Below the pieces are notes generated by a model. The model ran no database searches. It was not told where the DNA came from and worked only from the letters and a program-made list of their open reading frames with translations. From Rhizobacter sp. SG703 (lineage in GTDB: Bacteria; Pseudomonadota; Gammaproteobacteria; Burkholderiales; Burkholderiaceae_C), in contig NZ_JAAZQK010000008.1 of the NCBI RefSeq assembly GCF_012275445.1, positions 248,001 to 312,000 on the forward strand: a stretch of 64,000 nucleotides of DNA. The letters are read 5' to 3'. The translations under genes were made by a program, and so were the position numbers. The first letter of the stretch is position 1, and the number at the start of each line of letters is the position of its first letter. Below are positions 2,851 through 4,196 of this stretch, piece by piece.

Positions 2851-2881
2851 TTGACGGCCTGTCATCGGCCCGTGCTACATT
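2851..2881 (+). promoter_or_regulatory. Candidate sigma-70 promoter of the aroG leader
   Basis: TTGACG at 2851-2856 and TACATT at 2876-2881 are separated by 19 bases, slightly longer than ideal. Transcription would begin near 2888, almost on the ATG of the leader peptide at 2889. No Shine-Dalgarno sequence precedes that ATG, so the leader mRNA may be leaderless. This is inferred from sequence only. Confidence 0.45.
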
Positions 2882-2888
2882 CGCGGCC

Positions 2889-2972
2889 ATGCGTTTCGTT
2901 CCGTCCTACTTCTTTGCCTACTTTTGGTTCTCGCACCGCTCGGCGGAGGAGAGGTCAGCGCGTAGGCAGTAA
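2889..2972 (+). CDS. Aromatic leader peptide of the aroG attenuator
   Basis: A 27-codon frame begins MRFVPSYFFAYFWF. Eight of its residues 3-14 are aromatic (five Phe, two Tyr, one Trp), followed by a Ser/Arg/Glu-rich tail and TAA at 2970-2972. It lies just upstream of a strong intrinsic terminator and then the DAHP synthase gene. That is the classic layout of ribosome-mediated attenuation: when charged Phe, Tyr or Trp tRNA is scarce, the ribosome stalls on the aromatic codons at 2895-2930. The segment CGGCGG at 2941-2946 is then left free to pair with CCGCCG at 2999-3004 and block the terminator. The pairing is my inference; the peptide composition and position are directly visible. Confidence 0.85.
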   Translation: MRFVPSYFFAYFWFSHRSAEERSARRQ

Positions 2973-2995
2973 CAGACAAGCGCAAAGAACTCACC

Positions 2996-3027
2996 AAACC
3001 GCCGGGCTCCCCCGGCGGTTTTTTTTT
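2996..3027 (+). terminator. Intrinsic terminator of the aroG attenuator
   Basis: CCGCCGGG at 2999-3006 pairs perfectly with CCCGGCGG at 3011-3018 around a 4-base loop. Nine T residues follow at 3019-3027, and the AAA at 2996-2998 can extend the stem into the T tract. It sits between the leader peptide stop and the aroG start, so it should control read-through into aroG. Confidence 0.9.
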
Positions 3028-3077
3028 GCCCCCGCCGTCCCGAACCCTTCCCATCGCTCACGCAGGAGATCACCCAC

Positions 3078-4196
3078 ATGAACGCCCAGTCCGCCAGCGC
3101 CACGGAGGGTTGGTATGCGCCCGTCGACAAGACAGGCCAGACCGACGATGAAAGGATCCAGGACGTGACTCCGCTGCCCCCGCCCGAACACCTGGTTCGC
3201 TTCTTCCCGATCCGCGGCACGGCCGCCGAAACGTTGATCGCCGACACCCGCCAGCGCATCAAGAACATCGTCGCCGGCCGCGACGACCGCCTGCTGGTCG
3301 TGATGGGCCCGTGCTCGATCCACGACCCGGTCGCCGCCGTCGACTACGCCCGCAAGCTGCGCGTGCAGCGCGAAAAGTACGCCGGTACGCTCGAGATCGT
3401 GATGCGCGTGTACTTCGAGAAGCCGCGCACCACCGTCGGCTGGAAGGGCCTGATCAACGACCCCTACCTGGACGAGAGCTACCGCATCGATGAAGGCCTG
3501 CGCATCGCGCGCCAGCTGCTGACCGAGATCAACAAGCTGGGCATGCCGGCCGGCAGCGAGTTCCTCGACGTGATCTCGCCGCAGTACATCGGTGACCTGA
3601 TCTCCTGGGGCGCGATCGGTGCGCGCACCACCGAAAGCCAGGTGCACCGCGAACTGGCGTCGGGCCTGTCGGCGCCGATCGGCTTCAAGAACGGCACCGA
3701 CGGCAACATCCGCATCGCGACCGACGCGATCCAGGCCGCGGCCCGCGCGCACCATTTCCTGTCGGTGCACAAGAACGGCCAGGTCGCGATCGTCGAGACG
3801 CGCGGCAACCCCGACTGCCACGTGATCCTGCGCGGCGGCAAGACGCCGAACTACGACGCGGTGCACGTCGAGGCGGCCTGCAAGGACCTCGAAGCCGCGA
3901 AGCTGAACCCGTCGCTGATGGTCGACTGCTCGCATGCCAACAGCAGCAAGCAGCACGAGCGCCAGATCGACGTCGCCCGCGACATCGCCGGCCAGCTCGC
4001 CGGCGGCAGCCGCCGCATCTTCGGCGTGATGGTCGAGAGCCACCTGACGGCGGGCGCGCAGAAGTTCAGCGCCGGCAAGGACGACCCGGCGCGCCTCGCC
4101 TATGGCCAGAGCATCACCGACGCCTGCATCGGCTGGGACGATTCGCTGACGGTGCTCGACGTGCTGCACCAAGCGGTCAAAGCTCGCCGCGGCTGA
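3078..4196 (+). CDS. aroG: 3-deoxy-7-phosphoheptulonate (DAHP) synthase, class I
   Basis: This enzyme condenses phosphoenolpyruvate with erythrose 4-phosphate, the first committed step to Phe, Tyr, Trp and chorismate products. The 372-residue length fits the AroG/AroF/AroH type. Visible signatures are MGPCSIHDP near residue 75, AGSEFLDVISPQYIGDL with the following GARTTESQ, GFKNGTDG, and VDCSHANSSKQ. The ATG at 3078 is preceded by AGGAG. Control by transcription attenuation is strongly suggested by the leader peptide and terminator directly upstream. I cannot tell from the sequence which aromatic amino acid inhibits the enzyme. Confidence 0.95.
   Translation: MNAQSASATEGWYAPVDKTGQTDDERIQDVTPLPPPEHLVRFFPIRGTAAETLIADTRQRIKNIVAGRDDRLLVVMGPCSIHDPVAAVDYARKLRVQREKYAGTLEIVMRVYFEKPRTTVGWKGLINDPYLDESYRIDEGLRIARQLLTEINKLGMPAGSEFLDVISPQYIGDLISWGAIGARTTESQVHRELASGLSAPIGFKNGTDGNIRIATDAIQAAARAHHFLSVHKNGQVAIVETRGNPDCHVILRGGKTPNYDAVHVEAACKDLEAAKLNPSLMVDCSHANSSKQHERQIDVARDIAGQLAGGSRRIFGVMVESHLTAGAQKFSAGKDDPARLAYGQSITDACIGWDDSLTVLDVLHQAVKARRG

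Follow-up and report, generated by a model that had tools for sequence, protein, structure and literature searches.

The window, a 64,000-nucleotide stretch of the Rhizobacter sp. SG703 genome, contains an aroG gene for 3-deoxy-7-phosphoheptulonate (DAHP) synthase (3078..4196, plus strand), which scores 530 bits against NCBIfam TIGR00034 (aroFGH; cut-off 173). The genome is close to that of Rhizobacter sp. Root1238, whose AroG is 99% identical, and the divergent upstream neighbour resembles fumarylacetoacetate hydrolase family proteins, at a score below the model cut-off. A short open reading frame precedes aroG on the same strand (2889..2972, with ATG at 2889 and TAA at 2970-2972). Read directly from the sequence, it has 27 codons and encodes MRFVPSYFFAYFWFSHRSAEERSARRQ. 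Eight of the residues are aromatic (F3, Y7, F8, F9, Y11, F12, W13 and F14), exactly as in a preliminary description of this DNA, which had reported a 27-codon frame with eight aromatics at positions 3-14.

The aromatic richness of this reading frame is not a matter of chance. None of 20000 random strings of 26 codons, drawn with the composition of the window, reached eight aromatic residues; among 20000 mononucleotide shuffles of the leader ORF itself, 0.07% did. Among the 1170 start-to-stop readings of 15-60 amino acids on both strands of the window, only three contain a 12-residue stretch with at least seven aromatics, and each of them is the leader ORF itself read from a nested start.

Terminator, competing stem and putative promoter

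An intrinsic terminator lies between the leader and the structural gene, as is typical of the attenuator class. Its perfect 8-bp G/C stem is formed by CCGCCGGG (2999-3006) and CCCGGCGG (3011-3018), which enclose the loop CTCC (3007-3010). With three A-T pairs, the terminator totals 11 bp (2996-3021), and it ends in a run of nine T (3019-3027). The perfect 8-base-pair hairpin with nine T residues before aroG had been described correctly, as had the hexamers CGGCGG at 2941-2946 and CCGCCG at 2999-3004, which were proposed to pair and so to prevent termination.

In the resulting scheme, CCCGGCGG is strand 4, the right arm of the terminator, assigned by covariation and folding, and CCGCCGGG is the core of strand 3, common to antiterminator and terminator. 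The core of strand 2, GCTCGGCGG (2938..2946), is located inside the leader ORF and has strand 3 as its partner. The distal half of strand 2, AGGAGAGGTCAGCG (2947..2960), pairs in the antiterminator with 2980-2995, in the upstream half of strand 3 (2980..2998), which is the outer antiterminator part; folding and the swap test described below support both assignments. The hexamer pairing is thus present, but the competing stem is larger than had been claimed, and spans 2938-3007. Its energy is -29.7 kcal/mol (z = -4.75), and none of 200 shuffles was as low. In the free RNA, the terminator (-32.3 kcal/mol) is favoured over the antiterminator (-25.5 kcal/mol), and therefore the switch would depend on timing. 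By pairing and spacing, the antiterminator excludes the terminator and could be exposed by a ribosome stalled at the control codons.

An extended -10 element, TGCTACATT (2873..2881), ends 7 nt before the leader ATG. A possible -35 element, TTGACG (2851..2856), is found 19 nt before the -10 element, a longer distance than usual, and a consensus sigma-70 scan allowing 16-18 nt spacers identified no promoter in front of the leader. Because the -10 element ends 7 nt before the ATG, transcription is expected to start at or beside its A. The position of the -10 element suggests that the leader mRNA is probably leaderless in the window.

Distribution of the leader and its linkage to aroG

An aromatic leader ORF is present in 63 of the 80 named loci encoding AroG relatives, which are the best 80 of a longer list, and was not detected by the scan in the other 17. 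Of these, L035 has only 7 nt upstream before the contig end, and L015 has a weaker leader. Two Cupriavidus and three Polynucleobacter aroG loci (L038, L048, L039, L040 and L043) are without a leader by the scan. In Cupriavidus lacunae (L083) the leader is present, before a less similar aroG.

For a wider survey, a covariance model (R1) was built from the window and 48 loci, which match by construction. At E<=1e-5, R1 matches 289 of the 299 genomes searched in the family, with 261 of 267 when the count is limited to good assemblies; 137 of 141 genera are represented. Order-wide, 143 of 399 genomes match at E<=1e-3, a good part of them with the terminator end only. In the class, the number is 8 of 369 genomes; one of these matches covers the terminator alone, and four are full-length and come from outside the order. 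The phylum search matched 47 of 398 genomes, 12 from the window's own family, nine from elsewhere in the order, six from class family f63, and 20 from outside the class; our guess is that these 20 are Alphaproteobacteria. The Rhizobacter genome itself has one strong match; the runner-up (E 0.04) covers a short segment of the opposite strand. When 2861-3077 was compared with plasmid records in a distant DNA search, nothing matched.

The other class was searched with a second model, R2, built from 17 sequences; of 289 genomes, 32 matched at E<=1e-5, mostly with terminator ends. Nine matches are full-length, and seven of them (including the one in G1197) have aroG downstream. In the remaining two aroG was not seen: the contig of L266 ends too early, and L271 is followed by a different gene. 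No aromatic ORF was found at L270, which has aroG. The L271 locus (G1585:C1:1459354-1459484, minus strand) has the leader MIHAANYYYWFISSHTGGAQGFV and a GC-rich hairpin without a T run, and the gene behind it, which is not aroG, begins MTTETTILADLPQVSLQ.

The leader is closely tied to aroG. Among the matches listed for the order (to near E 6e-4), 105 of the 110 full-length ones precede a same-strand aroG; the exceptions (L238-L242) are the five weakest of these 110. The same arrangement holds for the four full-length class matches from outside the order, for 29 more loci of the family, and for all 20 loci examined after the phylum search, of which 18 belong to the 20 genomes outside the class and two to f63. 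At L150, the contig ends 45 residues into aroG. The Rhizobacter genome has a second aroFGH gene (L123, G000:C3:71741-72781, minus strand), with no match to the leader model; its 500 upstream bases hold no aromatic leader either, and therefore one paralogue would escape leader control.

Leader and aroG also occur together outside the order, at L129, L131, L132, L260 and L261 (f63) and at L130 (f68). In a quick tree of 167 rows, the AroG proteins of L129-L132 (f63 and f68) group with order family f4 with a support of 95, which suggests that the leader-aroG unit was transferred. The label 'none' in this tree mixes duplicates (L012, L071) with terminator-pattern misses (L049, L066), and gain and loss counts were set aside.

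Conservation of codons, spacing and pairing

For the comparison of leaders, a strict scan was applied to the loci with an aroG match (231 of 242), after exclusion of duplicates of the window's own locus and of the paralogue in its genome. It failed at 25 loci: in 21 the terminator pattern was missing, in three the ORF, and one locus was too short. Seven of the 25 are full-length model matches that the scan missed (L199, L214, L227, L231, L234, L235 and L236). After merging of identical leaders, the aromatic leader ORF was present in 194 distinct relatives; sub-analyses used 186 or 187 of them.

All 194 leaders contain Phe, 185 contain Tyr, and 129 contain Trp, with 125 holding all three. The mean content per leader is about 4.5 Phe, 1.6-2.0 Tyr and 0.5-1.0 Trp. 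By codon count, Phe is probably the dominant signal of the aroG leader. The proposal that one leader senses the overall aromatic supply has to be qualified, because Phe dominates and the full set is confined to the 125 leaders; sensing of the three need not be equal. In the aromatic run, differences between sequences fall on codon positions 1, 2 and 3 in 773, 1556 and 2904 cases, and amino acid changes touching an aromatic replace it by another aromatic in 758 cases and not in 585; both sets of numbers come from pairs of related sequences and do not represent independent events. A short ORF rich in codons for the end products is what an attenuator would have, and the codon-position pattern points to its translation.

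The distance between the aromatic codons and the switch is narrowly kept. Counted from the first base of the last aromatic codon, GGYGG begins after 10-20 nt in 183 of 186 leaders (14 nt in the window). This count is not free of choice, since the scan accepts GGYGG only at a distance of more than 20 nt from the leader start and of 6 nt or more from a preceding aromatic codon. The reading frame of the core, on the other hand, is variable: of 187 leaders, 65 read it as Gly-Gly, 113 in frame 2 (x-Ala-x in nearly all), and nine in frame 1. In five leaders the ORF stops directly after the core, and GAGAGG is still kept. Since the core occurs in three frames and is kept past a stop, it is the RNA, not the peptide tail, that is conserved there.

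Both alternative stems covary across relatives, a check that the preliminary description had proposed. In 49 leaders, 96.6% of terminator cells are paired, and the covariation score is 0.133 versus 0.057 in shuffled data, with none of 500 shuffles as high either on score or on cells changed on both sides; further pair types do not exceed the shuffles (458 of 500). For the pairing of strands 2 and 3 in the same 49 leaders, 93.3% of cells are paired, and the score is 0.132 versus 0.077 shuffled, again unmatched in 500 shuffles, with both-side changes (360 of 500) and further pair types (44 of 500) not beyond the shuffles. The five-pair core GGCGG/CCGCC/GGCGG gives no covariation of its own because its sequence hardly varies, and consensus folding of the strand 2-to-3 segment yielded no covarying pair. 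In minimum-energy folds of this segment, GGYGG is paired with CCGCC in 186 of 187 leaders. The base adjoining the core pairs with strand 3 in 147 of 187 leaders, versus a mean of 136.5 and a maximum of 145 in 2000 shuffles made within two groups. In the swap test on 186 leaders, the outer arm of the 2:3 stem beats all 2000 partner permutations, overall and within both groups, whereas the control pairings (strand 1 with strand 3, and the 5' flank with strand 2) have no partner effect.

The pattern extends beyond the class. When 17 leaders, some of them from the other class, are aligned, strand 2 reads CTGGCGG in 14 rows and strand 3 reads GCCGCCAG in 13. GGAT follows strand 2 in 12 of the 17 rows, with ATCC opposite in six and GTCC in six; L257 and L259 are without the GGCGG core. 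The preliminary description had staked its case on the small frame and the competing stems being conserved in relatives, and this is what the comparison found.

The putative promoter motif is conserved over a shorter range. At an AroG identity of at least 71%, 77 of 87 leaders have a TGnTRNNDT motif that ends 6-8 nt before the leader ATG, and among the remaining 107 leaders 25 have a motif of this type within 10 nt of the ATG. In several loci of the other class, TATATG is found shortly before the ATG. A leaderless start is therefore likely in the window's group and in several other-class loci, and is not general.

The proposed attenuation mechanism and its alternatives

Taken as a whole, the sequence data make it very probable that the leader is a ribosome-mediated transcription attenuator of aroG; conservation, covariation and spacing all favour the attenuation by an aromatic leader and terminator that had been predicted for the locus. 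According to this model, transcription would start at the leader ATG, and the peptide would be read from a leaderless RNA. When charged Phe, Tyr and Trp tRNAs are plentiful, the ribosome would pass the aromatic codons and cover GGCGG in strand 2. Strand 3 would then pair with strand 4, and RNA polymerase would stop at 3019-3027. When charging of the aromatic tRNAs is low, the ribosome would stall within the run of aromatic codons. If F14 occupies the A site, the front of the ribosome, as judged from its footprint, would be at about 2940, just short of GGCGG. Strand 2 would remain free, and the long imperfect 2:3 stem (2938-3007) could form before strand 4 is synthesized, block the terminator, and allow the polymerase to read into aroG. 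The stop codon of the window's leader is 24 nt past GGCGG. A ribosome resting there would leave the core uncovered behind it, and therefore the shielding must come from the passing ribosome.

A protective hairpin between strands 1 and 2, as in the classic trp type of attenuator, was considered because TTCTC can pair with GAGAG in the window and because TTC is preferred at the last Phe codon. At an AroG identity of at least 71%, the last Phe codon is TTC in 73 of 74 leaders, versus 92 of 304 for the other Phe codons. In the window's group the other Phe codons are mostly TTT; the corresponding region of the window is 2925-2954. The hairpin is not supported: 1:2 pairs from the same leader are no better than exchanged ones, which equalled or surpassed them in 1986, 1999 and 1999 of 2000 permutations in three groupings, and the candidate in the window has z = +0.24. 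At the clade level, UCUC goes with GAGA in 81 leaders and UUCC with GGAA or GGAG in 38, and 10 are mixed. UUCUC/GAGAG complementarity may still be the cause of TTC at the last Phe codon, despite the negative 1:2 swap test.

Other readings of the locus can be envisaged. The probable leaderless start is shared with rnTrpL of Sinorhizobium meliloti (as presented in the accessible portion of PMC7298713), and the terminator would yield an RNA of about 139 nt carrying an ORF. By analogy to rnTrpL/peTrpL, the short attenuated RNA or its peptide might be the main product and act in trans, with control of aroG secondary. We consider this improbable: past the aromatic run the peptide changes frame between groups while spacing and terminator pairing are kept, and the unit stays with aroG. 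A plain terminator before aroG next to a chance ORF, with another promoter downstream serving the gene, would fit the strength of the terminator and the failure of the consensus scan to find a promoter site in front of the leader. It is very hard to reconcile with the conservation of the aromatic ORF, of its spacing and of the strand 2:3 covariation. Just as little can be said for a different sensor (a riboswitch, a T-box or an RNA-binding protein) acting on the aroG terminator. An intrinsic terminator with an alternative stem suits any sensor, but neither the window nor 13 loci yielded an Rfam match at the cut-off of the family, and conservation falls on aromatic codons and on their tight spacing to the switch.

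Returning to attenuation by the translating ribosome, there would be a consequence for regulation if there is no protector hairpin: absence of leader translation should favour aroG read-through. In the trp attenuator, by contrast, absent translation does not favour read-through. More speculatively, and with considerable doubt on our part, the leader might be seen as integrating all three aromatics at the gateway of the pathway, by a leaderless two-state switch without a protector hairpin in which loss of translation favours expression, a design kept across two classes, partly by transfer with aroG.

Relation to known leaders and biological meaning

The contrast with classic leaders dominated by one amino acid, drawn in the preliminary description, has to be softened, because leaders for several amino acids are already known (thr, ilv and aroR). 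The thr and ilv leaders are not limited to a single amino acid. In Corynebacterium glutamicum, the aroR leader, reportedly the subject of work by Neshat in 2014, has a leaderless transcript.

In the accessible text of PMC11802643 and PMC3890552, the C. glutamicum aroR leader is located upstream of aroF, contains a Phe-Tyr-Phe motif and acts by attenuation; it reads Phe and Tyr (PMC11802643, same portion). Like the aroG leader, it is an aromatic peptide before a DAHP synthase gene under attenuation control, but it is without Trp and comes from another phylum, and the likeness is drawn from its description (PMC11802643, as far as accessible). The same holds for the uORFC-13-1 motif before aroF in Acholeplasma, with 24 examples in the available part of PMC8632094, which also combines a small upstream ORF with a terminator stem at a DAHP synthase gene, but comes from another phylum, has an additional paired element, and is again likened by description. 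The trpL/rnTrpL leader of S. meliloti shares the leaderless ORF and the ribosome-dependent attenuator, but senses Trp, targets trpE, and has known functions in trans (PMC7298713 and PMC10117765, accessible sections). In E. coli, pheL stands before pheA and not before aroG (PMC11802643), and the DAHP synthase genes are under TyrR and TrpR (PMC11802643, PMC5343134), according to the portions available.

Among the weak Rfam matches, the best is Phe_leader (RF01859), the pheA leader type, which likewise has a Phe leader ORF followed by a terminator, with 20.8 bits against a gathering score of 55. The Burkholderia sRNA ncS54 (RF02871) was also considered for 2917-3026 of the window and dismissed, with 18 bits against a cut-off of 43; it does not reach the cut-off in any of 13 loci, eight of which are from Burkholderia, Caballeronia or Paraburkholderia.

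A literature search confined to openly available main texts found no description of an aroG leader in these bacteria. No description was present in the accessible parts of PMC11802643, PMC8632094, PMC5688073, PMC2965389, PMC1173090, PMC5343134, PMC3890552, PMC7298713, PMC4117421, PMC10117765 and PMC1273637. A table in PMC1173090, in its available part, associates predicted attenuators with tyrA. For Burkholderia cenocepacia, the accessible text of PMC5688073 reports 82 short 5'UTRs, and the aroG leader may be among those in its supplement. The aroG attenuator is of a known kind, newly recognized as far as the literature was searched, widespread, and clear in its anatomy.

As the first enzyme of aromatic amino acid synthesis, DAHP synthase determines the flow into the whole group, and an RNA switch of about 140 nt precedes a gene for it in nearly every sampled genome of the family and in distant relatives. 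How one leader weighs three end products is a question that is thereby made directly testable.
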